A DNA stretch of 27,777 bases from a virus, in the IMG/VR virus record IMGVR_UViG_3300027733_000172, positions 1 to 27,777 of that record. The stretch is one strand, 5' to 3'. The position numbers and the translations under genes are program-made. Shown here one piece after another: positions 2,464 through 27,683 of the stretch. Positions within the stretch are counted from its first letter, which is position 1, and the number at the start of each line of letters is the position of its first letter. Below the pieces are notes generated by a model that was given only the letters and a program-made list of their open reading frames with translations, ran no database searches and had not been told where the DNA came from.

Positions 2464-2572
2464 GATACTTAAAGTACTCTCTTTCGACTTCGAATGGACT
2501 TCTGGCGCAAAGAAAAAAGAACTACCTGTAATTGAGAACAAAGAAACTATTGATACCAAGGAAACAAAATGA
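2441..2572 (+). CDS. 43-aa overlapping small ORF
   Basis: Reading from the ATG at 2441 gives a 43-aa protein starting MHIKIKLEILKVLSFDFEWT and ending KETIDTKETK. It overlaps the end of the previous gene by 23 bases in another frame, and its TGA overlaps the nuclease ATG (ATGA at 2569-2572). AGAGGAG lies about 10 bases before the start. It fills the gap exactly, and its alternating hydrophobic N-terminus looks like a beta strand pair, both of which argue for a real gene. The tail is charged and probably disordered. Function is unknown. Confidence 0.6.
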   Translation: MHIKIKLEILKVLSFDFEWTSGAKKKELPVIENKETIDTKETK

Positions 2573-3366
2573 AAAAGACAATGTTGATTTTGAGTTTACT
2601 AGCACTTAGCGTCTCTACAACACACGGTGCATCAGTAACAGTGCAGCCGTTAACTGTGATTGATAGCAAGTGTCCACAGTTTGTAGCTTTCGGTGCTCCT
2701 GTTGAACACGTTGCCGCTGGTCAGTACATCTGCAAGAAGAATTATGCTATTCATTATCGTTATGATACAAAAACAGCAGAGTATGTTGTAGAGCATCCCA
2801 CTAAGGCTGCTATTACTGGCACGTCAAAGCGTAAGGATGACTTCCGTCCTGATCCAGATGTCGCAAAGCAATATCAGTCACAGTTAGCTGACTATGCTAC
2901 TGCGGGCAACATCTATGATCGTGGGCATTTAGTACCTGCTGGCAATAACACTCAGTCAGATGCTATTATGTCTGAATCATTCTTTCTATCGAATATGATT
3001 CCACAGATTGCTAATAACAATCGTGGCATCTGGAAACAAGTAGAAACTCATGTTAGAACATTAGCAGTTGACAATGATTCTATCTACGTTATCTCAGGCA
3101 CTATCTATGATGCTGGCTATACTACAATCGGCCCGAACAAAGTCGGTGTGCCAACAAGAGTGTTTAAGGTTATTATTGATAAGAAACACAATAAAGCAGT
3201 GGGCTTTATCTTTCCGAACAAAGCATTACCTGTTGCTGATCTACCCAAGTATAAAGTGCCTGTTGCTACAGTAGAAAAGGAGAGCGGCATTAACTTTATG
3301 CCAACTCTCCCATCTAATCTATCAGGTATTAAAACTATAGAACCGACTCTTTGGGATATACGTTAA
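2569..3366 (+). CDS. Secreted DNA/RNA non-specific endonuclease (EndoG/Serratia nuclease family)
   Basis: A 265-aa protein with a Sec signal peptide (residues 1-20, KKTMLILSLLALSVS then THG|A). The nuclease core carries the family motif DRGH at residues 117-120, where His120 is the expected general base. The metal-binding Asn is expected at 151 in PQIANNNRGIWKQVE. The family cleaves DNA and RNA, single or double stranded, with Mg2+. Two Cys (C34, C55) after the signal peptide could form a disulphide in the periplasm. It is the last gene of the + strand late operon, so the enzyme is made late and exported. It may degrade DNA released at lysis, or incoming DNA of rival phages; this is inference. 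It converges with the cyclase gene 4 bp away. Confidence 0.9.
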   Translation: MKKTMLILSLLALSVSTTHGASVTVQPLTVIDSKCPQFVAFGAPVEHVAAGQYICKKNYAIHYRYDTKTAEYVVEHPTKAAITGTSKRKDDFRPDPDVAKQYQSQLADYATAGNIYDRGHLVPAGNNTQSDAIMSESFFLSNMIPQIANNNRGIWKQVETHVRTLAVDNDSIYVISGTIYDAGYTTIGPNKVGVPTRVFKVIIDKKHNKAVGFIFPNKALPVADLPKYKVPVATVEKESGINFMPTLPSNLSGIKTIEPTLWDIR

Positions 3367-3370
3367 TATC

Positions 3371-5440
3371 CTACTTGGATTGCGCCCTATAAACTCCATC
3401 CCAATCTTTACCGGGAGGATTCTTAATGAAATACTCGCACCGCTTTAGCATCATTGCATAATAGTCTGCCATGTTACCCGTGAAGGAAGAGCGCAAGGTT
3501 TCAATACTTCTTGCACAGCTATCAAATCTCTTAGCTCTATAATCAGATAAGAACTGAGCATGTTTTGCTTGAGACTTTTTGTATTCAGATAGTTTAGAAT
3601 TATATCCAAGGCAGGTATAAATCCTAACACCTTCTTTCTTGCCCTTAACAGCAATGGTGTCAAGTTCTAGAATAAAAAACTCATCATCAATACCCTGTAC
3701 GGTGTTGTGGCCAAGAACAATTCTTACACCATAGTCTTTAGATTGCCCTTCTAAACGAGAGGCAAGATTTACGGAGTCCCCCAAACATGTGTAATCAAAG
3801 CGTTGACTGCTGCCCATATTACCAACAACCACGTCCCCAGTATTGATACCAAGACCCATGCCGAAAGCAGGTACTCCCATAGCAGCGATATCGTAATTAA
3901 ACTGATCCAAGTCACCAAGCATTTGAAGTGCTGTTTTAAGCGCATTTCGTCTATGTTCCTTATCATCTAATGGGGCATTCCAGAAAGCCATTTGAGCATC
4001 ACCGATATACTTGTCTAGTGTGCCAGCGTTCTTTAAAATCTTATCAGTCATCACAGTCATATACTTGTTCATAATCTGTGTAAGACCTTGAACGTTAGCA
4101 CCGTAGTGTTCGCTGATAGCAGTAAAACCTCTAACGTCAGTGAACATGATTGATAACTCACGTGTCTCACCGCCAAGTGTGAGTAACTCTGGATTCTTTT
4201 GTAGTTTCTCAACAAGAGCAGGTGACAAATATGTGCCGAACTGCTTCTTAATTTGTAGCTTTTGCATTAGCTCAGAGATAAACTTAACAGTGTAGATGTG
4301 AATGTACAAAATTAATATTGCAAAGATGTTGAAACTAACATCAAATAAAATTTTATTATGCTCAAATAGATATTTTGGCAAATAAGTGTACGCTGCTACT
4401 AGTGCTGCAATATAAATAAACGAGAACCGCAATCTAGATAATAGAATTATACACAATGTTAGAAGAATTAGAGAAGCATAGTCAAGAACTGGCGTCCATA
4501 ATGGAATCGCTACAGAATCCCCCTGTAGAAGCGTATGAAGAACATTGGCTTGGACATAATGTGGAAACTGTGATCCAACAGGAGTTGCAACGGGGTTCGT
4601 TACTCCAGCCGCTGTTACCCCTAGCAGCACTATCTTTCCTGTTAGGTCTTGGGGTATATCTGTTATGGAAAAATCAGAAAAGCGATAATTCCAGTTCACA
4701 AACACTCTCGAATATTCATCAGTCTTAATAACTGGGAACGTAGGAATACGTACTGCTTCTACACCAGTTTGATTGATCTTAGCTTGATAAGACTCTTGCC
4801 CTGCGGCTGCTCTTAGAATTTCTAATGAGAACGATGGATAGTATTCGCCCTGTGACATAGCTAACATGGGCACTCGACGTACAACACCGTCTGCTTCGGG
4901 CAGTGTTGATGTAATGCCTGTACCAATAGCCACAGATTGTAGATCAAATATGTTGTCTAGTACACACGGATACTCTGGCAAAAACTCAGTTGCTTCACCA
5001 TCGCCGACAACAGCAACACCTGTACGCTTAGTGTCTTTGTTGTTGCGATCACAGTTGCCTACAGTTTGTGATAAAATTGTAGGATAGCCCAACATTGCAT
5101 TAGCAAGAGCTTTATCACCACCAAATCTATCTGCTTCTAAGAATAAAACTGTGTTGCCTAGAACAGCAGCGTGTCTGTCTTTCAAGTCTTTGATTATATC
5201 AGCATATACACTGCGAGGGAATGGAAACTGTCCGTACTTCTGAATTGCTTTCTCATCAATGTTTGCAAGTACGATATCATTAGCAGCAATCGGCTTGCTA
5301 ATCATTAGATAATCATAGAACTTTAAAGTGCCCATCTCAACGAGATAGGGATTTGAAATCTTAATGCATACAAGAAGAGCGAAAGTTACGAGTGCCAACC
5401 AAGGCGATAAGAATACTTTTTTAATTACCTTGCTTGACAT
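3371..5440 (-). CDS. CHASE2-domain class III adenylate cyclase
   Basis: A 689-aa protein: an N-terminal membrane helix (about 13-28), a periplasmic CHASE2 sensor domain (about 35-305), about three membrane helices (about 315-390) and a cytoplasmic cyclase domain (about 425-615). Catalytic residues are all present: metal-binding Asp435 (FTDVRGF) and Asp480 (KYIGD), adenine-specifying Lys476 and Thr550 (DYTCLGD), and transition-state Asn557 and Arg561 (NLASR). The Lys/Thr pair indicates a class IIIb adenylate rather than a guanylate cyclase. It should make cAMP in the host cytoplasm in response to an unknown envelope signal. The start overlaps the FecR gene by 20 bases, with GAGGAAG before the ATG. 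FecR/CHASE2 pairs are known in bacterial genomes, so this looks like host-derived cargo. Confidence 0.93.
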   Translation of the reverse strand: MSSKVIKKVFLSPWLALVTFALLVCIKISNPYLVEMGTLKFYDYLMISKPIAANDIVLANIDEKAIQKYGQFPFPRSVYADIIKDLKDRHAAVLGNTVLFLEADRFGGDKALANAMLGYPTILSQTVGNCDRNNKDTKRTGVAVVGDGEATEFLPEYPCVLDNIFDLQSVAIGTGITSTLPEADGVVRRVPMLAMSQGEYYPSFSLEILRAAAGQESYQAKINQTGVEAVRIPTFPVIKTDEYSRVFVNWNYRFSDFSITDIPQDLTGKIVLLGVTAAGVTNPVATPVGSQFPHYVQANVLHTLLQGDSVAIPLWTPVLDYASLILLTLCIILLSRLRFSFIYIAALVAAYTYLPKYLFEHNKILFDVSFNIFAILILYIHIYTVKFISELMQKLQIKKQFGTYLSPALVEKLQKNPELLTLGGETRELSIMFTDVRGFTAISEHYGANVQGLTQIMNKYMTVMTDKILKNAGTLDKYIGDAQMAFWNAPLDDKEHRRNALKTALQMLGDLDQFNYDIAAMGVPAFGMGLGINTGDVVVGNMGSSQRFDYTCLGDSVNLASRLEGQSKDYGVRIVLGHNTVQGIDDEFFILELDTIAVKGKKEGVRIYTCLGYNSKLSEYKKSQAKHAQFLSDYRAKRFDSCARSIETLRSSFTGNMADYYAMMLKRCEYFIKNPPGKDWDGVYRAQSK

Positions 5441-6506
5441 TGATTACACTTCCTCCTTCGTTGACTTTGATGTTGTATTGTTTACCACCAACGTCCAGAT
5501 TGATAATCTTTCCTTTGTCTTTCTCAACAGAGATCGAAACAAACGTTCCAACAGAACGAACAAACTGAATTTTGTCTTGAGCTAACAATGTATATATCTG
5601 TGTCTGTGGATCATATCCGAACGCTGTACCGTCAATAGTAACGCCATCTTTAGTAGATGAACCGCCCATTGATGTAGCAAGAAAGTCTTCTAGAAAGTTA
5701 GCGCTCAGAACATCAACACTCAATGCATCCATTTGCAGATTGTCTTTTTCTAAATCAGTGTTTTTAAGATAGTCAATATCAAGTTCTGACAAATCTAAGA
5801 TGTTTGATTTTGAGTTTGTAGTTTCATCAAATTGTCTGGCTTCATCTGGCGGCGAAACAATCAACATGTTGTCAATTTGATTTAGAGTTAAATTCAAAAT
5901 AACAGGCTTTGATGGCGCACCGTCATATGTGTTGACCATTGTTGCTTGAAATGCTTTAGTGAGTGTTACGCTACCGCCGGCGTTGCTGACTGTAATCTCA
6001 CCTACTGTGCCATCTGCTTCTGGTAATAAAATAACAAGACTCTTGCCGAAGTCATCTACAGTAGTTGTGAAGTCTGTGCCACGTACAGCAATAGTAGCTG
6101 TAGGTGTATTAAGTGCAATGTTTTGTTTGTTGATCTTGCCTAGCTGACCTGTAGTGAATCGAACAGTGCCAGAAGCAAAGTTAAGAGCCATCTTAGAAGT
6201 GTTTGGATTGCCACTGTAAACAAAATCATCAATAACAAGCTTAGAGTGTTCAGTTACTTTTACATTTGAGTTATCGACAAATGTAATCTCTACTCTACCA
6301 TTGCCTGTTTGGACGTTATCAAGTTGCTGAATAGGCAAGCGAGATTGCGTAGAAAGTTTTTGATCTTTCCTAACAATCTCGCTTGACCCAGTAAACGCCG
6401 ATATAGAACCAATACTAGTGGGCGGCGCAGTTGCCGCTTGGACCGCACTGACTAATAATAACGTTTGTGCCATTAGCAACAGAAGTAACCGTAACGCTGT
6501 CCACAT
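5421..6506 (-). CDS. Exported FecR-domain protein
   Basis: A 361-aa protein with a signal peptide (LRLLLLLMAQTLLLVSAVQA, cut near residue 24). A FecR-type beta-rich domain follows (about 35-190), with VEITFVDNSNVKVTEHSKL and the characteristic TATIAVRGTDF. The C-terminal part is unassigned. Here the domain stands alone, without the membrane anchor of FecR anti-sigma regulators, as in proteins found beside CHASE2 cyclases. It probably acts in the periplasm, perhaps as ligand or partner of the cyclase sensor. The 5' end overlaps the curlin-like gene by 92 bases if ATG 6506 is used, or 59 bases from ATG 6473. Neither start has a strong ribosome-binding site, so translation may depend on coupling. 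Confidence 0.88.
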   Translation of the reverse strand: MWTALRLLLLLMAQTLLLVSAVQAATAPPTSIGSISAFTGSSEIVRKDQKLSTQSRLPIQQLDNVQTGNGRVEITFVDNSNVKVTEHSKLVIDDFVYSGNPNTSKMALNFASGTVRFTTGQLGKINKQNIALNTPTATIAVRGTDFTTTVDDFGKSLVILLPEADGTVGEITVSNAGGSVTLTKAFQATMVNTYDGAPSKPVILNLTLNQIDNMLIVSPPDEARQFDETTNSKSNILDLSELDIDYLKNTDLEKDNLQMDALSVDVLSANFLEDFLATSMGGSSTKDGVTIDGTAFGYDPQTQIYTLLAQDKIQFVRSVGTFVSISVEKDKGKIINLDVGGKQYNIKVNEGGSVINVKQGN

Positions 6507-7125
6507 GTGTTGTACTCGTTTGATTGAGTGTTAAGTTATTCGTATTACCAGTCACAGATACGTTAGCGTTTTTGCCAGCATATCCATTTTGTGTCAGTGT
6601 GAGCGTATTGCTATCGCCACTTGCTGTTACAGTGTTTGTCACATCGTTAGCATTGATTGTTGATGTATATGTATTTAAGTCGCCTGTGATAGCAATAGCC
6701 TGAGTAGCTCCAGTTGATGCAGCGTTATTGCCCTGCGTCAAGCTAACAGTGTTTGTGCTACCAGTTATGTCTAATGTTGTAGCAGAACTCGCAACACTGG
6801 CGCTGCCGCCTATGTCGAGTGTTACTGCGTTGTTATCGCCCACGGTGTTAATAGTCAAGTCAACGTTATCTGCGTTGTTAACAAGACCGTCGATAGTGTT
6901 GCTCGCGCCATCTTGTCTAAAGGTAACGTTTTGATTGCTACCCTCTAAACTAAATGGTGTTGCTTCAGAGCCGATCTTATTTGATTGTCCCTGTTGCTGT
7001 AGTGTTACATTGCTGCCGTCGCCAACTTGATCAATATAGATAGTGTTGGTTGCCGACTGCGCTAAAACCAGTGATGGTGTCATCAAAGCCATAATCAAGA
7101 ACGCTGTCTTGATTTTGTTTCTCAT
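6415..7125 (-). CDS. Curlin-like repeat protein (candidate amyloid subunit)
   Basis: A 236-aa protein with a clear signal peptide (cut after LVLA, residue 22). About eight degenerate curlin-like repeats of roughly 20-25 residues follow, built on G-x2-N-x-[VL]-x-[LFI]-x-Q, for example GDGSNVTLQQQG, GSNQNVTFRQDG, GDSNTLTLTQNG and GNTNNLTLNQT. Such Gln/Asn/Gly/Thr-rich beta-helical repeats are the hallmark of CsgA/CsgB amyloid subunits exported through CsgG. The repeats diverge from the S-x5-Q-x-G-x-N-x-A-x3-Q consensus, so it cannot be called CsgA or CsgB. The C-terminus holds two Cys (SQCGPSGNCAAH). The start overlaps the csgG stop as ATGA. Confidence 0.8.
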   Translation of the reverse strand: MRNKIKTAFLIMALMTPSLVLAQSATNTIYIDQVGDGSNVTLQQQGQSNKIGSEATPFSLEGSNQNVTFRQDGASNTIDGLVNNADNVDLTINTVGDNNAVTLDIGGSASVASSATTLDITGSTNTVSLTQGNNAASTGATQAIAITGDLNTYTSTINANDVTNTVTASGDSNTLTLTQNGYAGKNANVSVTGNTNNLTLNQTSTTHVDSVTVTSVANGTNVIISQCGPSGNCAAH

Positions 7126-7910
7126 TTTTCTTCCTTATATCTCCAGAGGTTTTTGGTTATGCCTTGTTTGATTAGTTCCACCACAGCTTGCTGTATTGCT
7201 GTCTTCACTGCTTTAGTATTAGCTTCATTTTGCGTCATACCAATTTCAGCTTCTACTGCTTTAGTTCCAGCATCTACGAATTTAAACAAAGTAACATCAT
7301 TACCATAAGATAATATAGTCTTAGCTACTTCAACAGTCAAGACAACTTCTCCTGTTTCAGTAGAAGTGCCTCGTAATGCTATAACAACTTCATCTTTTCT
7401 GTATGTAACATCAGCGCCAATACCTAGATATCTTGCACCAGCACCGCCGGTAACAAGATTAGAGTCATAGCCAATTATACCACCCTGCAATATAAGACCA
7501 GCAAACAACATGGGCTTCAGCTTATTAGCATCTTTGCCCACATACTCATCACGGGTAGACTTCACTATCTGACGTTCTTTTGCAAGATCGTCAACTCTAT
7601 TTCTTTCTACTACTGTGAACCATTCTCCTCTACCAGCGTCTTTAAGAGCGCCGATAAGAAGATTGCTTCCCCCTTGTGTCACAGCATTAGAAAAACTAGC
7701 TACATTGTCCTTGTCTTTTCTCTGACCAGTTAGATCAGGGAAATCATATACTGCTACTACCGCTTTTCTTTCAGGTGGCCGCATATCATATAATTCAGTC
7801 AGTTTTGTCCGATACTGTTGCGGATTCTCTGTCAGGTTATCGACAGGAAAATGAGCGCAACCACCGCACAAACTGATACATGCAATAATCATGCACAACG
7901 ACTTTTTCAT
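7122..7910 (-). CDS. csgG: CsgG-type outer-membrane curli secretion lipoprotein
   Basis: A 262-aa protein against 277 for E. coli CsgG. It has a lipoprotein signal with GGC at residues 16-18 (Cys18), though a Cys replaces the usual Leu at -3. Strongly conserved blocks are GGAGARYLGIGAD (E. coli GGVGARYFGIGAD), AKTILSYG, and a C-terminal end with LIKQGITKNLW. CsgG forms a nonameric beta-barrel pore that exports unfolded curli subunits. In the constriction loop (QRKDKDNVASFSNAV) the Phe equivalent to E. coli F56 is kept as Phe73, but Tyr51 is replaced by charged residues and Asn55 by Ser, with one extra residue. Substrate selection may therefore differ. It is coupled to csgF (TAATG) and to the curlin-like gene (ATGA). 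Confidence 0.95.
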   Translation of the reverse strand: MKKSLCMIIACISLCGGCAHFPVDNLTENPQQYRTKLTELYDMRPPERKAVVAVYDFPDLTGQRKDKDNVASFSNAVTQGGSNLLIGALKDAGRGEWFTVVERNRVDDLAKERQIVKSTRDEYVGKDANKLKPMLFAGLILQGGIIGYDSNLVTGGAGARYLGIGADVTYRKDEVVIALRGTSTETGEVVLTVEVAKTILSYGNDVTLFKFVDAGTKAVEAEIGMTQNEANTKAVKTAIQQAVVELIKQGITKNLWRYKEEK

Positions 7911-8362
7911 TAGAAACTAAACCCGCCAACTGGTATGGTAATACTTGTTATATTTCCAGAAGAATCAGTTATGTTCAATACGATTGTGTCACCAGTATTT
8001 GTGTATTGGATACTATTATCGTCTAAAGTAAATGATCCAGAAGCACCTTTACTTGAAAACAAATTCTGCGTCAATTGTTGAGCAATCTGAGAATAAATTC
8101 TAGACTGCAAATTGTTAACAAATCTATTCAAAATAGAGTTTTGATCTGCGAGAGCGGCGGCTTTAAGAGCAGCATCAATCTTGTCTTGAATAGCCTGCCT
8201 ACGGGTATGCTCTTGATTCTCAACAGTAAGCCATTGAGATCCAGCGTTTACCCCACTAAAAGAGGGATTTTTAAATTGATATACGAGTTCTCCGGCTAAT
8301 ACAACTTTCGTACAAAGTAATGATATAAGAAAGCCAGAGAGGATTGTTTTTGTTGTTTTCAT
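7910..8362 (-). CDS. csgF: CsgF-type curli assembly factor
   Basis: A 150-aa protein against 138 for E. coli CsgF. The signal peptide ends at Ala23 and the mature N-terminus GELVYQFKNPSFSG matches E. coli GTMTFQFRNPNFGG. That is the segment which inserts into the CsgG pore and forms its second constriction. A helical middle (about 55-100) and a C-terminal beta region ending ITIPVGGFSF complete the fold. It is the first gene of the operon, 25 bp after a T4-type late promoter (8387-8394), with GGGAGGTGG as a strong ribosome-binding site. Its job would be to dock on CsgG at the cell surface and hold or nucleate the exported subunit. Confidence 0.93.
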   Translation of the reverse strand: MKTTKTILSGFLISLLCTKVVLAGELVYQFKNPSFSGVNAGSQWLTVENQEHTRRQAIQDKIDAALKAAALADQNSILNRFVNNLQSRIYSQIAQQLTQNLFSSKGASGSFTLDDNSIQYTNTGDTIVLNITDSSGNITSITIPVGGFSF

Positions 8363-8462: not shown

Positions 8463-9719
8463 TTATACGTATATTAGCTGATCAAACGGAACTTTAGTGT
8501 TTCTTAGTGATTTTAAATCTAAACCATAACCGTCTATATACTCTGTCATGATACAATCTGGATGCCAAGAGTAATTTTGCACCCGTTTTAACAAATCGGT
8601 ATCAATTAGAAATTTTTGAAAAGACTTCGAATTCATAAGACGATGTTTTGCTTTTGCACTCGTTGTTTTCCAAAACTCACTGTCTTCTTCAAGTTTGTTT
8701 TCTGAAATATATTGTAATGCAATAAGATTTTGATATTTTTCCATATGCTCATTATACATTCTGTTATGTTCTATATTCAAATAAGACAGTGGCAAATCTT
8801 CAGATACCTTTTGCAAAAATAATTCTGAAAAATTCATATACGTGTGCAAAGGCAATGCATTGGTTGGCTCAAGTAAAAACAATTTGTTTCCTAGATAAAG
8901 AATTCTACCTTCTAAATTTCTTTTTCTACGATACGGTTGCCAAGAAATTTTTGGCAAATTAGTTGTGTCTATACCGCCGCGAATTGCAGAAAATTTTGCA
9001 CATGCTTCTTCTTCAGAAAGAAATTTGTTATTATAGAGATAGCCCCATGCTTTTCTTGTTGCAATAGGAATTCCAAACATCCAGCCATTATCATGATAAT
9101 GCGCCGAAGTAAACATTTCTTCATAGTATTTAAACTCTGGCTGTATGACAACAGAGTTTACTGTTTCGAAAACATCTAGAGTATAGTCTTCACTCTGCAA
9201 TTCTTCTTTTGTCGGATTACCCATACAATTAATAATAACATCAAAAGTATGTGCATGATCATTGCAATGTACAGTTACATTATTTTCTGTTTGATCTATA
9301 GATAGAATAGTATCTTGTATTTCTATAACATTTTTATATTTTGCAATTACTTCTTTAAATACCCATTTGCTCCACACCTGACTGTCAAATTGATATCCCG
9401 CAGCAGGTTGACACACATTAAATGTTGGCAGTCCAGTTCTTTTTTCATAAAAGTATCTAGTAGAGAATTTATAAGTTCCGCTAAATTCTTTACGTCTTCC
9501 ATGTATGGAATCTCCTAGAACATCTTCCATAAGAGCAGGAATTCCAGAACTGGTGCTTTCTCCAACAGGAGCTATTGGAATTTTTGGATCATGTATAATA
9601 ACTACATGAACATGATTCAAATCGTGCTTAACATTGTAATTGTGTACCCGCATTGCAGCAAGAAGAGCAACTGAAGCCGCACTGCCAGCACCAAGAATTC
9701 CTACTTTAAGCGGTTTCAT
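8463..9719 (-). CDS. Flavin-dependent tryptophan-halogenase-like protein
   Basis: A 418-aa protein, somewhat shorter than typical halogenases (about 500-540). An N-terminal FAD-binding Rossmann motif is seen as VGILGAGSAAS (residues 6-16), and PVGEST at 51-56 matches the GES motif of the family. The WxWxIP signature of true halogenases appears as WMFGIP (213-218), with the second Trp replaced by Phe. The active-site Lys could not be placed with confidence. Halogenase-like genes are, from memory, common in T4-like cyanophages, but their substrate is unknown. A terminator follows it and the gene at 9723-10079 precedes it by 3 bp. The coding DNA looks more AT-rich than its neighbours. Confidence 0.78.
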   Translation of the reverse strand: MKPLKVGILGAGSAASVALLAAMRVHNYNVKHDLNHVHVVIIHDPKIPIAPVGESTSSGIPALMEDVLGDSIHGRRKEFSGTYKFSTRYFYEKRTGLPTFNVCQPAAGYQFDSQVWSKWVFKEVIAKYKNVIEIQDTILSIDQTENNVTVHCNDHAHTFDVIINCMGNPTKEELQSEDYTLDVFETVNSVVIQPEFKYYEEMFTSAHYHDNGWMFGIPIATRKAWGYLYNNKFLSEEEACAKFSAIRGGIDTTNLPKISWQPYRRKRNLEGRILYLGNKLFLLEPTNALPLHTYMNFSELFLQKVSEDLPLSYLNIEHNRMYNEHMEKYQNLIALQYISENKLEEDSEFWKTTSAKAKHRLMNSKSFQKFLIDTDLLKRVQNYSWHPDCIMTEYIDGYGLDLKSLRNTKVPFDQLIYV

Positions 9720-20924: not shown

Positions 20925-21440
20925 TTACTTTCCTTGTTCCTTTGGATTTGCTTTATCTACTGCGGCTTTGGTGTCGTTGAGCCACTGTTGGAGTCCTGCG
21001 AGTTGCTGGGCGTTTTGGATACAGACTGAGTAGTTTCCGACGATGGTTGCAAGGGCAACAGTGTCTTTAATTCCTGAGGCGGCCTCATCAGCACTTCTGG
21101 CGGGGACGGCAGGTAAGCCTTGGGTACTAGAGTCGTGGAGGTACACCCAACCAGAAGACAATTCAGCGCGAGAAGGCACAACAGTTTGGGCTTGATCTCT
21201 GTAAACATATTCTTTTTCCTTTACCGTTCTTACTTTATCAACATACTGAGTTATCACTTTATTACTTATTTCGCCATTTTTCTTTTCAAGTTCCGCAATT
21301 TGAGCATTAGCCTTTGCTTCATATTCAGCAAGAATTTGTTTTGATTTATCTAGACCTTTTACATAGCCCATAGCAATAGCGCCAGCCATGAGAAAGGCTA
21401 TAATTAAAATCTTATAGGGTAATGGTATAAAACTAAACAT
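20925..21440 (-). CDS. Rz-like inner-membrane spanin
   Basis: A 171-aa protein with an N-terminal membrane helix (about 8-26, YKILIIAFLMAGAIAMGYV). A long periplasmic coiled coil follows (AEYEAKANAQIAELEKKNGE) and a periplasmic tail with one Cys. This is the topology of i-spanins such as lambda Rz, which link to an outer-membrane lipoprotein and fuse the membranes in the last lysis step. The second gene nested inside it (20957-21208) is an Rz1-like lipoprotein, which strongly supports the call. The sequence itself is not clearly similar to lambda Rz. Confidence 0.83.
   Translation of the reverse strand: MFSFIPLPYKILIIAFLMAGAIAMGYVKGLDKSKQILAEYEAKANAQIAELEKKNGEISNKVITQYVDKVRTVKEKEYVYRDQAQTVVPSRAELSSGWVYLHDSSTQGLPAVPARSADEAASGIKDTVALATIVGNYSVCIQNAQQLAGLQQWLNDTKAAVDKANPKEQGK
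20957..21208 (-). CDS. Rz1-like outer-membrane lipoprotein spanin, nested in the Rz-like gene
   Basis: An 83-aa protein wholly inside the Rz-like gene in another frame. A signal peptide ends in the lipobox LLVG|C (Cys22), and a Ser/Pro-rich chain follows (PSPPEVLMRPPQ, SNSGSTTPKPQ), the classic o-spanin makeup. AAAGGA lies 8 bases before the ATG, so it has its own ribosome-binding site. The mature lipoprotein would sit in the outer membrane and bind the Rz-like coiled coil across the periplasm. Such embedded pairs are known from lambda; this one confirms a Gram-negative host. Confidence 0.85.
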   Translation of the reverse strand: MFTEIKPKLLCLLALNCLLVGCTSTTLVPKAYLPSPPEVLMRPPQELKTLLPLQPSSETTQSVSKTPSNSQDSNSGSTTPKPQ

Positions 21441-21633
21441 TAACTGATCCCATCAATCTACGGAGTTGAGTGCCGAGTTCTTTCTCACTCTTCTCTCCAG
21501 CCTTCTGATATTTGTTTTGTTTCTTTTTGGAAACAGGAACAATCTTTTGTGGGTTATCGCCAGCTCCAGCAACACCAGCAGTCGTTACTGTAGGTGCTGC
21601 ACCTTCTTCATTGAACTGGCTGAATGTTTTCAT
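21433..21633 (-). CDS. Small phage structural-type protein
   Basis: About 66 aa from ATG 21633, which overlaps the previous stop as ATGA; an ATG at 21648 is possible but less well placed. It starts MKTFSQFNEEGAAPTVTTAG, has a Gly/Ala stretch and ends with Lys-rich KKKQNKYQKAGEKSEKEL. The MKxFxxFxxE start followed by Ala/Pro/Gly residues is one I recall in small proteins of T4-like phages encoded near head genes. The role is unknown. Confidence 0.68.
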   Translation of the reverse strand: MKTFSQFNEEGAAPTVTTAGVAGAGDNPQKIVPVSKKKQNKYQKAGEKSEKELGTQLRRLMGSVNV

Positions 21634-22025
21634 GATCGGCATCTCCATCTCTTCAAAGAAGCAGCTTTACGTGTTGGTCTGCCCTTTTCGTCTTTCATGG
21701 GCCCAGGCATTCCACTCATGCGAGCGCAGAAAGATTTACGGCGACCAGCAGCTTTTGAACCTGGTTTAACTTTACCAGTAACAGCAGTCTGAATACCGAA
21801 GTGCTTTGCACCTTTACGAGTTAGACCAGCACCAGATTCTGTTGAACGATAATAGCCTTTAGAATCTGCACCGCGTTCAGTGATGATCTCTTCTTTTACA
21901 GGAACACAGTTAGGAACTTCTTTGCCGTTCTTATTTTTCTTGCCAATCATCTCGTAGCCTTTCCAGCAAGGATCGGCTCCTTTCATTTTCTTGGCTTCAG
22001 AATAAAAATGCGAGAACTTTTTCAT
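21630..22025 (-). CDS. DUF6321-like phage protein
   Basis: A 131-aa basic protein. DPCWKGYEMIGKKNKNGKEV in the first third and, later, KGYYRSTESGAGLTRKGAKH with KVKPGSKAAGRRKSFCARMS match the Cys- and Lys-rich domain I associate with DUF6321, found in virion-associated proteins of T4-like phages. The very basic, Cys-containing chain could bind DNA in the head. Its start MKKFSHFYSEAKK resembles that of the neighbour at 21433-21633. Confidence 0.75.
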   Translation of the reverse strand: MKKFSHFYSEAKKMKGADPCWKGYEMIGKKNKNGKEVPNCVPVKEEIITERGADSKGYYRSTESGAGLTRKGAKHFGIQTAVTGKVKPGSKAAGRRKSFCARMSGMPGPMKDEKGRPTRKAASLKRWRCRS

Positions 22026-23666
22026 TTAGTTTTTCTTATCCGATTCCATGTAATCAGCAACAGTGTCTAGATAGTCAGCAGCCATAGTTAGCTTAGACTG
22101 TACCCAAGCTTCTAGATTGCCTTCGCCCTTGAGCATACCCATTAGACGCTCAATAGAACGTGAAGCAGTTGTTAGCTGATTGCGAGCCATTTCGTACTCG
22201 TAGTCATGCTCTTCTTTTGTTAGCTTCTGTACATCAGCCTGTGCTTTGTCTGCCTTAGCAGCCTGGCGCTTTAAATGTGCATGAAACATTCTTGCGCGTG
22301 AGCCAGAAGCACTTTTGCCTGGATTGTGCTTGAACTTATATGCTAGATGATGAAGCGAATTCTTATGTTCAGAAGGTAACGCATGAAAGTCTTCGTCTGC
22401 GCCACCGTGCTTTTTAAGAATGTCACGTGCCTCTACTGGATCAACAGCTTCAAACATTTCAACTTCTTCGCCCATTCTTTTTAGACGATTAATTTCGCTT
22501 TGACCGCTTTTAAATGCTTTCTTTTCTTCACGTTCTTTTTTACCCATAGCTAGAATACGTTGACCAGCTTCTGGATCGTGACTCATGAAACTCATGACTC
22601 TTTTCTTCTTTGACACTGCTTCATCGACAACTTCGTTTTCTTCTTTTGTATATTTTGGATCACGATATTTTTCGTAATTCTTTTTCCAGTGTGATGTAGC
22701 AGTATCATGATCTTTAGAAGAAAATTTAACTTTTCCTTCATGATCTAGAACCTGCCAATCTTGTTTGAGTTTGCTTACATAAGGTTTAATTTCTTCATCG
22801 ACAGCCTGAACTTCTTCCTTGACGCCACCAACACGCTTAAACTTACGTTCCCAAACGCTATGATCTTTACCAGTTTGTTCGCCAGCAGATTTTAATACCC
22901 AACCAATACCTTTGGGACGTTCTCCTTTAGGATGTTTAATTGTTTCTGTTTCGAGTTTTTCATTAATCCGCTCGACTTCTTCGTTACGATCCATACCTTT
23001 GACTTTAGGTTCTTCAAGACCGTAATTCTTATCGCCCCACTTTTTCTTAAGTGCTAAGGCATTACCTGCTTTGCGTTCTGGATCGCCCCTAGTTTTGTCA
23101 ATATAACGAGTAAGAGTACCACTACGATCTAATTCATCCACCTGCTCTACTTCTTCGTTTGCTGCCTTTAATGAAGCAGCAACGCGAGGATGTTTTGACA
23201 GATCTGGACGAATCTTTTCGATAGCGGAAATGGCACCTGTCATATTGCCGCCTACATAACGTTTATCGTGTGGAATACCTGTAGCCATCTTGACTTCTTT
23301 ATCAGATGCCTTTTCATCCACCTGCTCGACTTCTTCGTTAGTACTGTGTCCATATTTCTTTTTATACCAAGTTGGCATACCGTTGGTCTTTCTGAAATGT
23401 CTCACTGTGGCGGAGTCATTTGCTTGATCGCGGTATTTGTTCTCAGCAGTGGTGTTGTGGCTCTTCATTGCTTCAGCAGCAGCATGTGCATCTTTAGCAA
23501 TGTGAATCAATGCCGCATCAGACTTCTTGTGGTATTCGTGACCTTCTAATGGATGTCTCTGTGAAGGACGGCCTTCATCTAAACGGGCTTCTGACATACA
23601 AGCGCAAGGGGTTTTGCCGCAGTCTGAACACATTTTTGGTTTAAAGTCTTTGAGCTTCTTAGCCAT
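22026..23666 (-). CDS. Large modular protein with repeated EEVExVDE linkers
   Basis: A 546-aa Lys/Glu-rich protein. It starts with a CSDCGKTPCACM cysteine cluster, probably metal-binding. It is then built of short modules separated by a linker: NEEVEQVDE (twice), NEEVERINE, KEEVQAVDE, ENEVVDEA and EEVEMFEAVD. The modules include a FSSKDHDTATSHWKKNYEKY segment and an EARDILKKHGGADEDFHAL segment, both with relatives in the gene at 26502-27683. Two 26-bp DNA copies of the linker sequence (23134-23159 and 23314-23339) differ at one base. A late promoter lies 80 bp upstream within the preceding gene. An internal head or scaffold-like protein is likely, with the linkers perhaps acting as protease or binding sites. 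Confidence 0.75.
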   Translation of the reverse strand: MAKKLKDFKPKMCSDCGKTPCACMSEARLDEGRPSQRHPLEGHEYHKKSDAALIHIAKDAHAAAEAMKSHNTTAENKYRDQANDSATVRHFRKTNGMPTWYKKKYGHSTNEEVEQVDEKASDKEVKMATGIPHDKRYVGGNMTGAISAIEKIRPDLSKHPRVAASLKAANEEVEQVDELDRSGTLTRYIDKTRGDPERKAGNALALKKKWGDKNYGLEEPKVKGMDRNEEVERINEKLETETIKHPKGERPKGIGWVLKSAGEQTGKDHSVWERKFKRVGGVKEEVQAVDEEIKPYVSKLKQDWQVLDHEGKVKFSSKDHDTATSHWKKNYEKYRDPKYTKEENEVVDEAVSKKKRVMSFMSHDPEAGQRILAMGKKEREEKKAFKSGQSEINRLKRMGEEVEMFEAVDPVEARDILKKHGGADEDFHALPSEHKNSLHHLAYKFKHNPGKSASGSRARMFHAHLKRQAAKADKAQADVQKLTKEEHDYEYEMARNQLTTASRSIERLMGMLKGEGNLEAWVQSKLTMAADYLDTVADYMESDKKN

Positions 23667-24058
23667 TAAATTCTCCTTAACTTGTCTTGTATGTCTGGAT
23701 TAGAAATTATTTTCTCATTCAAAATTGTTTCGCCAGTTATACCTATATTTATAATTCTGTCAGGCATATAGTTAAGAAGTTCAAGGAACGGTTTCAGCAT
23801 TTCCTTGTGGTCATGCAGTTTGAAGAACAATAGCCTTGTTGCTGCTGTAACACCAAAGATGTTGTAGAGAATGATGATATGATTTAATATCAGTCTTTCT
23901 CTAAGATCACCTGTTTCTGCGTATATGTTGAATAGTCTACGGATGTACTTAAATCTCTTTAGGTCATCATAAAACTCTAGCGTGTCATAACATTGAGCGT
24001 TGTTATAATATTTTGCAGCATAAAGTAGAAAATTCGTTTCGTCAAGTTTTTCATTCAT
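23666..24058 (-). CDS. Conserved-type phage hypothetical protein
   Basis: A 130-aa, mostly helical protein (NFLLYAAKYYNNAQCYDTLE, FKYIRRLFNIY, RLILNHIIILYNIFG). It resembles a protein I recall as conserved among marine T4-like phages near the structural genes, with no known function. Its stop overlaps the start of the modular gene (TAATG-type, 23666), and it contains the minus-strand late promoter for that gene at 23746-23753. Confidence 0.7.
   Translation of the reverse strand: MNEKLDETNFLLYAAKYYNNAQCYDTLEFYDDLKRFKYIRRLFNIYAETGDLRERLILNHIIILYNIFGVTAATRLLFFKLHDHKEMLKPFLELLNYMPDRIINIGITGETILNEKIISNPDIQDKLRRI
23746..23753 (-). promoter_or_regulatory. T4-type late promoter inside the upstream gene
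   Basis: TATAAATA on the minus strand, 80 bp before the ATG at 23666, within the coding sequence of the gene at 23666-24058. It would give the modular protein gene and those after it extra late expression. An 8-bp motif in AT-rich DNA can arise by chance. Confidence 0.5.
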
Positions 24059-24064
24059 TAAAAA

Positions 24065-24646
24065 TTAATATCCTATGGCGAGGTACTCTACGCTAATTGC
24101 GGTTGTTGTTGAACCTGTGCGAATAGTCGCTACAGTAGTGTTTGGAGCAGCAACATGATATGCTACGTTAGCAGAGCCGATGACGTTCATAGAAACGTGC
24201 TGGCAAGCAGTTGGAAACGCAACCGAGAATGTAGCGTTGCCTGTAGAGTTGTTAGCAACAACAGTACCCCATTGCATGAGTACACCGTTGGGCAAATACG
24301 TATAACCATTAGCAGCTTTTGAACTGCTGCCTAATGATATACCAGCATTTGCGCTGAATGTGATTGTGTTGCTAAATGTCTGAGTGTTTGACCAAGTGTA
24401 TTGAGCAGAGGCGTTTGCTGTGCCGACAGAGCCAGTATAGCCTAGTGAACCAGCGTAACCAGTAGCGCCGACAGAGCCAGCGTAACCAATACTGCCTGTA
24501 TAGCCTACAGTGCCTAGATTAGCTACAGAAATAGTTTTGAGTACAGCAGTAGATGCTGCATTGGATAAAATTACAAGTCTATCCGTTGACAGCCGAGTGT
24601 TGGCTACAGGAAGATCAGTGAATTTCTTTGGACCGTTTGATGACAT
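24065..24646 (-). CDS. Tail-fibre-type protein with collagen-like repeats and gp53-like C-terminus
   Basis: A 193-aa protein. A short N-terminal region is followed by collagen-like GYTGSxGYAGS repeats (about residues 48-75), which usually trimerise. A beta-rich end then carries YTYLPNGVLMQWGTV and TFSVAFPTACQHV, the pattern of the gp53-like domain at the tip of phage fibres. That domain is a likely receptor-binding tip, so this is probably a short or accessory tail fibre that helps recognise the host. The terminator just upstream (24685-24712) separates it from the previous structural gene. Confidence 0.85.
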   Translation of the reverse strand: MSSNGPKKFTDLPVANTRLSTDRLVILSNAASTAVLKTISVANLGTVGYTGSIGYAGSVGATGYAGSLGYTGSVGTANASAQYTWSNTQTFSNTITFSANAGISLGSSSKAANGYTYLPNGVLMQWGTVVANNSTGNATFSVAFPTACQHVSMNVIGSANVAYHVAAPNTTVATIRTGSTTTAISVEYLAIGY

Positions 24647-24684
24647 TATAACTTATCCGTTAGTTTACAAAATGTGAAGAAACT

Positions 24685-24712
24685 GGGGCGTACCCTATTA
24701 CAGATACGCCCC
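24685..24712 (-). terminator. Probable Rho-independent terminator
   Basis: A perfect 8-bp inverted repeat, GGGGCGTA and TACGCCCC, with a 12-base loop, follows the stop of the 24732-26255 gene on the minus strand. It is followed by AGTTTCTT, only moderately T-rich, so the hairpin is firm but strand and strength are less certain. Confidence 0.65.
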
Positions 24713-24731
24713 ATATTTTATCAACTAGCTA

Positions 24732-26255
24732 TCAACTGTCTGGGAAGGCGATATCGTCAATATCGTTACCAGTGACAGTACGCATAGCAACTAGTGTCTC
24801 GTACTGTACACGACCAGCACGACCGCCGGTGCCTACTGTACGCTTGACCCACCCAGCGTTCATCTTAGCGGGCTGACCTGAGCCTAATGTAGCAGTAGCA
24901 GTTGCAGCAGTGCCGCCAACAATCTGGAAGTACTGAGCATTGTTACCTGTACCACTGATATCAATAACTGTTTCAGTTGTATAAGTTAGACCAGTTAGAG
25001 TACCAGCACTTGTTGTTAGTGCGCCACCGGCTTCAGTAGTTAGAGTAAAGCCAGTAACGTTTGGCGATGTACCAGTTACAGCAGAAACCTTATATGTAGT
25101 TCCTGTTGCATAGCCAGTAATAGTGCCTGTGCCTGCACGTGTACCAGTAATAGTAATACGATCAGCAGCAGCTAGTGTTGAAGCACCGCAAGTGAACTGA
25201 CCAGTAGTGCCGCTAACAGCTACAGTAGCAGCTAGAGTACCAGTTGTGTTTGCAGCCTTAACTTCAAAGGCGTTAGCAGTTAGACCAGCAGTTGCAACAT
25301 AGTATGTTGTATTGTTTGCTAGGCCTGTTGCAGCAGCGCCTGTTGAATTAAAGTACTTCAGTGAAGCGCCAGCAGCTTGACCGTGTGTTGTATAGTTTAC
25401 TGTGTCGAGTGTAGTATTAACAGAAGCAGTAGCAACAGTCAATACTGGAACGTTAACTGTAACAGCAGGAGCAGCTAGATAAGCAGAGCCTACGTTTGTT
25501 ACTGTAATTGCAGTTACAGCGCCAGCAGAGATAGCTGCTGTAGCAGTTGCAGTGTCACCAGTTAGTGTCTGGCTGCTGTTGCCTGTGCCGCTTAAATTGA
25601 TATAAGTGCCAGCTTGAGCATTTGATAGTGATGATGCCAACTGAAATGTATTAACACCAGTATTGATTACATAGTAAGCAGTAGCATCTGATAGACCACC
25701 GAGAACTGTGCCGCCAGCAGCGCCGTATGTTAGCTTTGTACCAGTCAGTAAGCCGTGATTGGTTACTGTGATATTTTCGGTAGTTGTGTTGACTGCTGTT
25801 GTTGCAATTGTTAGTGCAGTAGGACCAGCAAGAGTAACAACAGGAGCTTCAACGTAAACGCCGCCGCCTTGAATCAAGCCAATGCTTGTTACGTTATCGC
25901 CACCAGCAGCAATTTCTGATGTGTCGATGCCGAAGATTGTAGAAATGTTGTTCTGACCAGTAGGAGTATTTCCATCGAAATAAGCATACTTTGGTTGCTG
26001 CTGAATTGTTACGTTTGCAGCGGCAACTGTTGCTGATGAGCCAGGAAATACGTCTGAAAGTGTTAGAGCCGTATTGCTAGTGATTGATAGAACACGGTTT
26101 CTTGAAGTCGTGCCTGAAACAATGCGTAGAACATCGCCTGGCTGAAAATCTACCTGAAACTTTGTGCCTGTGCCAGTGACAGCCGCGCTGCCGTTGGTTG
26201 CTGCAATGCTTGTGCCTTGAATAGCGCCAGCATCGTTATTACCCCATAGTGCCAT
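24732..26255 (-). CDS. Repeat-rich phage structural protein
   Basis: A 507-aa Thr/Ala/Gly/Ser-rich, beta-structured protein. It begins MALWGNNDAGAIQGTSIAAT and ends WVKRTVGTGGRAGRVQYETL then VTGNDIDDIAFPDS, termini I recall from virion structural proteins of marine T4-like phages. The middle holds at least two degenerate domains built around NHGLLTGTKLTYG and THGQAAGASLKYFN, each followed by GL-x3-T-x-YYV and NxFxL. Such repeats suggest a surface-exposed decoration or fibre protein. AAGGAGAAG before the ATG is a strong ribosome-binding site and expression should be high. Confidence 0.82.
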   Translation of the reverse strand: MALWGNNDAGAIQGTSIAATNGSAAVTGTGTKFQVDFQPGDVLRIVSGTTSRNRVLSITSNTALTLSDVFPGSSATVAAANVTIQQQPKYAYFDGNTPTGQNNISTIFGIDTSEIAAGGDNVTSIGLIQGGGVYVEAPVVTLAGPTALTIATTAVNTTTENITVTNHGLLTGTKLTYGAAGGTVLGGLSDATAYYVINTGVNTFQLASSLSNAQAGTYINLSGTGNSSQTLTGDTATATAAISAGAVTAITVTNVGSAYLAAPAVTVNVPVLTVATASVNTTLDTVNYTTHGQAAGASLKYFNSTGAAATGLANNTTYYVATAGLTANAFEVKAANTTGTLAATVAVSGTTGQFTCGASTLAAADRITITGTRAGTGTITGYATGTTYKVSAVTGTSPNVTGFTLTTEAGGALTTSAGTLTGLTYTTETVIDISGTGNNAQYFQIVGGTAATATATLGSGQPAKMNAGWVKRTVGTGGRAGRVQYETLVAMRTVTGNDIDDIAFPDS

Positions 26256-26330
26256 TTTCTTCTCCTTGATACTCGGGAATCCGCCCGGCCGGTTTAGAAG
26301 ATTTGTTCTTCAGTTACTTACTTATCGTTT

Positions 26331-26501
26331 TTAATCCGAAGACTTTTCAACAAACTCAGAATGACGAACAACCGCTACACTTGGAGTAATGCGTACAACG
26401 GGGTCACCAGACATTTTTACTTGAACTCTTTCGTTGTTCTTAAGTTCTTTCTGCTGTACCCCGTTGTTGAGCAATACAATCTTATTAGCAATAATAGTCA
26501 A
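26331..26501 (-). CDS. 56-aa TTG-start small protein
   Basis: Read on the minus strand, a 56-aa frame starts with TTG at 26499-26501, directly after the stop of the preceding gene. AGGA lies 8 bases before it inside that gene's end. The product starts (M)TIIANKIVLLNNGVQQKEL and looks like a small beta-rich domain (VQVKMSGDPVVRIT, SVAVVRHSEF). It fills most of the gap between two structural genes. No family is recognised, and the rare start codon leaves doubt. The remaining bases up to 26256 hold a GC-rich CCGGCCGG palindrome and the next ribosome-binding site. Confidence 0.55.
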   Translation of the reverse strand: MTIIANKIVLLNNGVQQKELKNNERVQVKMSGDPVVRITPSVAVVRHSEFVEKSSD

Positions 26502-27683
26502 TTACTTGTTCCTGTTGAACTCTTCTTCTTTTGCAATCTTACGAATATCACGATTCTGAGACATAATTTCACGAATTGAACTCTCTACGCCACGGAAACG
26601 ATTTGCTTCTGTAGCTGGAGTAACATAATGTCTCTCAGGTGCAGGAGTTTGAGCTTCTTCAGCGACAATCCAAGACTCTTTAATTGTATATCCAGTGTTC
26701 TTTACTAGAGGTCTGACCTTATTAGTATTTGTGTTGAACCATCTAGGATGATTGCCGTCAGCGCCACCGTGATGCTGCTGAACTTCACGTGAACCGTGTA
26801 GCTTTACGTGAGCATTAACTGCACTTGCGAATTTCGGAGAGAGTCCATGTTCTTTATAGACTGGTTTTACATTCTTTTTCCAGTGATCCTGTGCTGCTTT
26901 CACTTCTTCAGGAGAGTAGTACATACTTTTTGATGCTTCATCCATCTGCTCGACTTCTTCAGCAACAGTCTCTTCTTTACGGATCATCTTGAAATCTTGA
27001 GCGTCTAGCTTGCCGTTGTGGTTCTTATCAAGCTTCTTCTGCTTGCCGACTAGAGCTTTCTCGTCAACAGCTTCGACTTCTTCAGCTTGTGTTAGCTTGT
27101 CAAAGTCATTCTGTGACAATACGCCGTCTTCAAGAGCTTTCTGTAGCTTTTCTACGATATCTTGATCTTCTTTTACTGCTGACATAGGATGCCTCTTTTC
27201 TGGTGTGTAAGTGTTGTTAACGTGCTGCATGAAATTTTCGTGACTCGCTCCAGCGTGTTTGATGATCTTGTCTCTTGCATCTGGACTTTTGCCAGCACCA
27301 TGAAGAGAGCGAAACTTGTCTAGCACTTTTTCTCTGTGTGCAGGAGAAACTTCGTGTGACTGACCGTTTTCGAACTTAATCTTGGGAGCACCGCGTAAGT
27401 CTTTGTGCTTCAATAGCTGACCGTAGATGCCAGGAGCTTCACTATCAGACTCAGAAGAGCTTACTTCTTTCTTTGGCTTGGGAACAGTAGCAGTCTTTTC
27501 TGCTTTGGGCTTCCAGTCTTTAGGTGCCTTTAGAGAAATTCTTGCTTTGACTCTAGCTTCATCAACAGTTTCGACTTCTTCGGCAGTGGGCCGAGGAGAA
27601 GGAGCTTCTGCTGGTTTATTTAAATGTTTTTTAATTTGATCTAGCTGTCTTTTAACAACGAGAGGACGCTTTTCGTTTGACAT
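26502..27683 (-). CDS. Modular protein with EEVExVDE linkers and one EF-hand
   Basis: A 393-aa Lys/Glu-rich protein organised like the gene at 22026-23666. The linkers EEVETVDEA, EEVEAVDEK and EEVEQMDEA separate small modules. One module is an EF-hand calcium loop, DKNHNGKLDAQD, with Asp/Asn/Asp at positions 1, 3 and 9 and Asp instead of Glu at 12. Other modules (RDKIIKHAGASHENFMQHV and AAQDHWKKNVKPVYKEHG) resemble modules of the other protein, so the two are shuffled relatives. A degenerate late-type TATAATAAATA lies upstream at 27713-27723. An internal head or scaffold role is inferred only. Confidence 0.75.
   Translation of the reverse strand: MSNEKRPLVVKRQLDQIKKHLNKPAEAPSPRPTAEEVETVDEARVKARISLKAPKDWKPKAEKTATVPKPKKEVSSSESDSEAPGIYGQLLKHKDLRGAPKIKFENGQSHEVSPAHREKVLDKFRSLHGAGKSPDARDKIIKHAGASHENFMQHVNNTYTPEKRHPMSAVKEDQDIVEKLQKALEDGVLSQNDFDKLTQAEEVEAVDEKALVGKQKKLDKNHNGKLDAQDFKMIRKEETVAEEVEQMDEASKSMYYSPEEVKAAQDHWKKNVKPVYKEHGLSPKFASAVNAHVKLHGSREVQQHHGGADGNHPRWFNTNTNKVRPLVKNTGYTIKESWIVAEEAQTPAPERHYVTPATEANRFRGVESSIREIMSQNRDIRKIAKEEEFNRNK

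Follow-up and report, generated by a model that had tools for sequence, protein, structure and literature searches.

What is produced by two genes whose proteins consist of unlike segments joined by a single recurring acidic linker? The question is raised by a 27.8 kb virus record, IMGVR_UViG_3300027733_000172 (the whole stretch that was analysed, hereafter 'the window'), in which two minus-strand open reading frames (ORFs) encode protein A (546 residues) and protein B (393 residues; coordinates in Table 1). Judged from sequence, A and B are probably modular polyproteins of the prohead core or interior head of a T4-like aquatic phage, which would be cut at each linker by the prohead protease gp21. 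Processing of polyproteins by a prohead protease had been proposed in an initial annotation of this DNA, and it has emerged as the best supported reading, with a predicted rather than observed cleavage, on the strength of the position of like genes between gp20 and gp21, a fusion to the gp22 scaffold, [ILVM]xE cores at the linker ends and Glu as the last linker residue.

Linkers of proteins A and B

Eight clear linkers of the EEVExVDE type, and one or two degenerate ones, separate unlike segments in A and B, so that the 'at least nine' copies of the initial annotation are reached only if degenerate forms are counted. Its description of two linker-bearing genes 2.8 kb apart is accurate, as is that of a linker repeat at the DNA level, since the first two EEVEQVDE copies in A form a 26-nt repeat with one mismatch. 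The strict linker pattern matches four times in A and three times in B (seven in total), far above the chance expectation from residue shuffling (approximately 0.001 per protein, with a maximum of one in 2000 shuffles), and is absent from every other ORF of the window. All eight clear linkers end in a hydrophobic-x-Glu core; numbering backwards from the module that follows, position P3 is Val in six, Ile in one and Met in one, and P1 is Glu in all window linkers.

The linker end as a predicted cleavage site

To avoid the bias of a motif search, module families were located in relatives by hidden Markov models, and the residues just before each module start were then read. (The starts of the SKKTL module were nevertheless set by the motif, because the segments used as its seeds had themselves been delimited by strict linkers; the other families were chosen by eye.) At the exact module edge, P1 is Glu in 106 of 110 cases and P3 is Ile, Leu, Val or Met in 107 of 110, and this is the unbiased count. 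After the inclusion of seven further loci, and with the edge free to shift by as many as three residues, [VILMF]x[ED] was found at 112 of 114 edges, in a set whose alignment was anchored on hydrophobic residues at P3 and acidic ones at P1. Among these 112 aligned edges P1 is Glu in 110 and Asp in two, while P2 is Asp in 88 and Glu in seven; positions further upstream are more variable. A site that is nearly always Glu at P1, next to a P2 that prefers Asp, evidently distinguishes Glu from Asp. The modular protein of Caulobacter phage Cr30 keeps the core behind a different upstream sequence (NESENLEE, NRGEELDE); together with the counts at module edges, this suggests that the [ILVM]xE core behaves as a functional unit.

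The core resembles what PMC9026906 describes for T4, where gp21 cleaves after L/I-x-E, gp22 and gp67 are cleaved by gp21 to multiple fragments, and residues 8 and 10 of the capsid targeting sequence (CTS) control processing, which an Asp at position 10 prevents. We infer from the sequences that gp21 would likewise cut at the linker core. The same core recurs in head proteins of the relatives themselves. The N-termini of gp21 carry EEVEYITE, EDLKYVTE, EEVQYITE and similar motifs, in which Val and Met are also used, and most N-termini of gp23 carry FLSE, ILNE, LLGE or similar motifs where T4 has FLTE; by analogy with the known cut region of T4, this is presumptively where gp23 is cut. A basic protein at the position of T4 gene 68 bears EEVEQVDE, EEVELDE, FISE, MVSE or GLAE at its junction, depending on the phage. 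(Its similarity to T4 gp68 is weak and composition-biased, at 8.9 bits with a bias of 15.2.) Finally, the gp22 scaffold of locus L135 (2677-3849; Pfam T4_CASP 1.8e-19, phrog_237 3.7e-25) has three SKKTLGSY modules ahead of its scaffold domain, with the edges ALFE, TLFE and QLDE, and the genomes G001 and G002, which share modules with protein A, encode gp21 (Pfam Peptidase_S77 2.7e-34).

Linkers might instead be docking or targeting motifs for a scaffold or shell protein, in effect internal copies of the CTS that are left uncut or are cut only incidentally. Targeting sequences of T4 serve both docking and cutting (PMC9026906), several linkers are helical in the AlphaFold models, and the frequency of acidic residues upstream (Glu at P8, P7 and P5 in 76, 79 and 86 of 112 edges) exceeds what a bare L/I-x-E site needs. 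However, constancy is greatest at P3 and P1, where Glu is preferred to Asp at P1, and these are the positions that determine processing in T4, whereas the residues upstream of the core vary by lineage. Docking as the sole or principal role is unlikely; a docking role, alone or combined with cutting, is possible.

Gain or loss of linker-module units

Across the aligned positions, locus L008 matches gene A at 98.8% identity, and it lacks exactly two 174-nt units, each comprising a linker and a module. The first is bounded by AACGAAGAAGT and the second by TGTCGATGAAG, both at linkers. Gain or loss of 174-nt units has thus occurred at linker repeats.

Such exact events at linker DNA point to recombination, as do two linker copies one nucleotide apart in 26, and they would fit another explanation, in which repeat recombination (gene conversion and module exchange) maintains the likeness of linkers that are acidic spacers and have no function at the protein level. 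Against this stands the persistence of [ILVM]-x-E in Cr30 despite its different linker, at the edges of the GRPSQ module ([LI]xE and then G in 8/8 instances) and the MTDADM module, and in gp21, most gp23 and the gp68-position proteins, the last three of which lie outside repeat arrays. The spacer explanation is improbable.

The modules between linkers are basic (n=97, mean charge +9.1, 99% positive), and the linkers have a charge of -5.1. The module of B that the initial annotation took for an EF-hand is EF-hand-like only: it has a single loop, DKNHNGKLDAQD, that resembles the 12-residue form D-x-N-x-N-G-x-L-x-x-x-E but has Asp in place of Glu at position 12, and its score against Pfam EF-hand_7 (19.9) falls below the cut-off of 30 that an EF-hand would have to exceed. 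Searches of A and B against PHROG and Pfam matched no function, and none of their modules received an assignment of the HicA, Zeta or Dps type in the Pfam search. A comparison of the model of A with viral models by Foldseek gave no useful match. Shuffling of modules, which had been proposed between the two proteins, is clear across related phages; between A and B themselves there is no convincing common module (best BLASTP E value 7e-5, over 331 columns at 21% identity).

In relatives, some modules correspond to known domains, with scores that exceed the Pfam cut-off: the HicA toxin in 5 of the 70 proteins scanned, the Zeta toxin in two nucleotidyltransferase (NTase) proteins, a ferritin/Dps-like domain and DUF6321. 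These toxin and ferritin-like domains lead to a bolder and more tentative reading, a serious possibility that we would still bet against, in which the heads of T4-like aquatic phages are loaded with polyproteins whose modules, once cut by gp21, act as independent cargo. Some of the modules (HicA, Zeta-toxin, Dps/ferritin-like and nucleotidyltransferase domains) would be effectors ejected with the DNA into the host, the linker would serve as both protease site and recombination site, and phage populations would trade units.

Two further features of the relatives' modules were recorded. In four phages, LDE or LTE stands before a HicA-like module that has DUF6321 or another module next to it: L072, L105, L139 (all above the Pfam cut-off) and L042 (5951-6535; by sequence likeness). 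A module bounded by linkers in L139 (1936-6231, minus strand) contains an intein-like insert, with a Pfam Intein_splicing hit (5.9e-4) that falls short of the cut-off.

Distribution in relatives and two gene clusters

A DNA pattern for EEVE[QE][VILMF]DE was found at no fewer than 120 loci in IMG/VR. In this search across T4-like phages, of a kind that the initial annotation had suggested, the linkers recur in T4-like contigs, and the linker type proves to be conserved in relatives, so that the idea does not fall for want of conservation. The counts that follow are among the matches listed from that search, plus the seven added loci. Two or more strict linkers are present in 74 non-redundant ORFs (73 before the seven loci were added). 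Nineteen of the 74 lie in a head cluster, near gp20, gp21, gp22 or gp23; 47 lie in a second cluster, near NTase, DUF7207, DUF6321 or gp61 markers; and eight have neither set of markers in range. Wherever both gp20 and gp21 are on the contig, the multi-linker ORF is located between them (10/10). In cellular genomes, among the matches listed, the linker DNA pattern gives a single match per locus, whereas several of the listed viral loci have at least two.

Genes A and B belong to the second cluster, which shares the EF-hand-like, SKKTL, MTDADM, WVQSK and RYIDKT modules with the head cluster; three of these (EF-hand-like, RYIDKT and WVQSK) are window modules that recur in head-cluster proteins. 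CTS-like starts are found in 67 of 712 ORFs near second-cluster markers, versus 14 of 821 elsewhere and eight on shuffling. The second-cluster NTase of cyanophage S-SM1 (SSM1_190, T4-GC190), the N-terminus of which is MKKFSAFLNEA, has been found in virions by mass spectrometry (PMC3037559). That A and B are tail, neck or cytoplasmic host-takeover proteins, as the tail-fibre-like and baseplate-like genes beside them (24065-26255) might suggest, is highly improbable, in view of this virion NTase from the same cluster and of similar modular proteins that in relatives lie between gp20 and gp21 and, in one case, are fused to gp22.

Proposed mechanism and points against it

The mechanism proposed here joins observations (the motif, its pattern of conservation, the genomic position in relatives, the gain or loss of units, and charge) to steps that we infer for A and B, namely entry into the head, cutting and the fate of the pieces. 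The proteins would go into the prohead core during head assembly, where the end of each linker would present the recognition core [I/L/V/M]-x-E of a gp21-type prohead protease, and gp21 would cleave behind the last Glu of every linker. The polyprotein would thereby yield small peptides, most of them basic and every one ending in an acidic tail, which may remain with the DNA or exit the head. At the same time, the linker DNA would provide short repeats at which whole units of linker and module are gained, lost and moved, in an exchange that may run between phages and between the two gene clusters.

Several points weigh against processing of A and B in the head. The window contains none of gp21, gp22 and gp23, and the role of the second cluster in the head rests on one neighbouring family detected in virions and on N-terminal motifs. 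Both A (MAKKLKDFKPK) and B (MSNEKRPLVVK) are devoid of a clear N-terminal CTS. Val occupies P3 in most of the clear window linkers (six of eight), in contrast to the Leu or Ile of the T4 consensus, and the P3 count of the shifted-edge set arises by construction, from the way in which that set was aligned. AlphaFold, in what are poor models, sets several linkers in helices rather than in clean disordered gaps; these models, based on small alignments that omit the Cr30 protein, are mainly helical, with mean predicted local distance difference test (pLDDT) scores of 63.5 for A and 59.4 for B. No cleavage or virion evidence for A, B or their orthologues was found in the papers searched.

Relation to known head proteins

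Proteolytic maturation of the T4 head, and internal proteins that are ejected from it, are already known, and the A/B system would extend the T4 kind of prohead-core and internal protein in a new form. It would resemble the T4 core proteins gp22, gp67 and gp68, which gp21 cuts, in position between gp20 and gp23 (as seen in relatives), in [L/I]-x-E sites and in predicted cutting to multiple fragments, and the gp22 of one relative bears the modules. It differs from them in its many interchangeable units of linker and module, in the conserved acidic linker around the site and, here, in its second gene cluster. The internal proteins IPI-III and Alt of T4 have a short N-terminal CTS, like the motifs of the neighbours of A (MKKFSHFYSE and MKTFSQFNEE) and unlike A and B, which have no clear one; in T4 these proteins pass into the core, and cleavage behind Glu removes one N-terminal propeptide, whereas several internal sites are present here. 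In phages phiKZ and SPN3US cleavage of many head proteins occurs after Glu and has few other determinants, but the protease motif differs (S/A-x-E in phiKZ), and shuffled arrays of linkers and modules are not described for them in the available part of PMC9026906. The hypothetical protein of Cr30 (phrog_5709 family) has SKKTL-type modules whose edges are [LIM]-x-E, and it is similar in its gene neighbourhood and, by eye, in its C-terminal stretch; its linker, however, is ESENLNE or GEELDE rather than EEVExVDE, and it has no assigned function. A search of the open-licence literature found no linker-defined, shuffled polyprotein system.

If the proposal is correct, proteins would be loaded into the virus head in a Lego-like manner, and a reading rule would follow (an acidic stretch that leads into [ILVM]xE, CTS-like starts and two gene clusters) by which head cargo could be picked out from the many proteins of unknown function in T4-like phages of marine and fresh waters. 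It would also predict defined peptides that are detectable by mass spectrometry.

Feature layout and genomic neighbourhood

Table 1. Linkers, modules and adjacent genes in the window
Feature	Position	Strand	Remarks
Small protein	21433..21648	-	CTS-like MKTFSQFNEE near start
DUF6321 protein	21630..22025	-	next gene after A; CTS-like start MKKFSHFYSE; EEIITE linker
Protein A	22026..23666	-	order: N-terminal Cys-rich leader, then GRPSQ, KASDKEV, RYIDKT, KLETET and EIKPYV modules
Protein A, C-terminal part	within 22026..23666	-	AVSKKK stretch, then C-terminal WVQSK helical module
Short linker form EARLDE, protein A	23574..23591	-	precedes GRPSQ module
Linker EEVEQVDE, protein A	23313..23336	-
Linker EEVEQVDE, protein A	23133..23156	-	second repeat copy; upstream edge of first 174-nt unit absent from L008
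Linker EEVERINE, protein A	22959..22982	-	downstream edge of that first unit
Linker EEVQAVDE, protein A	22794..22817	-	contains start of second unit absent from L008
Linker ENEVVDE, protein A	22620..22640	-	contains end of second unit absent from L008
Degenerate linker EEVEMFEAVDPVE, protein A	22431..22469	-
DUF7207 gene	23666..24058	-	second-cluster marker; itself without linkers
Protein B	26502..27683	-	leader; central stretch like relatives' recurring QLRK-type module (by eye); EF-hand-like module; C-terminal stretch
Linker EEVETVDE, protein B	27558..27581	-
Linker EEVEAVDE, protein B	27060..27083	-	before EF-hand-like module
EF-hand-like module KALVGKQKKLDKNHNGKLDAQDFKMIRKEETVA, protein B	26961..27059	-	family also in head-cluster proteins of other phages
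Linker EEVEQMDE, protein B	26937..26960	-	after EF-hand-like module
Protein B, last ~40 residues	C-terminal	-	by eye like the end of the Caulobacter phage Cr30 modular protein

Among named phages, the closest relatives by protein A belong to the Melnitz group of Methylophilales phages; closer relatives are found on IMG/VR contigs. The gene order of Melnitz is similar to that of the window, with modular and small proteins, S-layer or fibre-like genes, a DUF7207 homologue (by eye), spanin-like genes, a primase and a curli csgG/csgF set. Positions 3371-8362 on the minus strand of the window encode a curli-type set that parallels the one in Melnitz and comprises CsgG-like, curlin-repeat, FecR-like and adenylate cyclase proteins, as judged by eye and by synteny. 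Both csgA and csgB are said to be lacking in Melnitz (PMC9004378); the window nevertheless has a curlin-repeat-like protein at 6415-7125, and the Melnitz record too annotates curlin repeats, unlike that statement.

Elsewhere in the window, an ORF at 8463-9719 (minus strand) resembles by eye a flavoprotein of the tryptophan-halogenase type, and one at 2569-3366 (plus strand) is, by eye, nuclease-like, with a signal peptide and a DRGH motif. In L034 (426-3148), the terminase large subunit is apparently split by an HNH-type ORF, again by eye.

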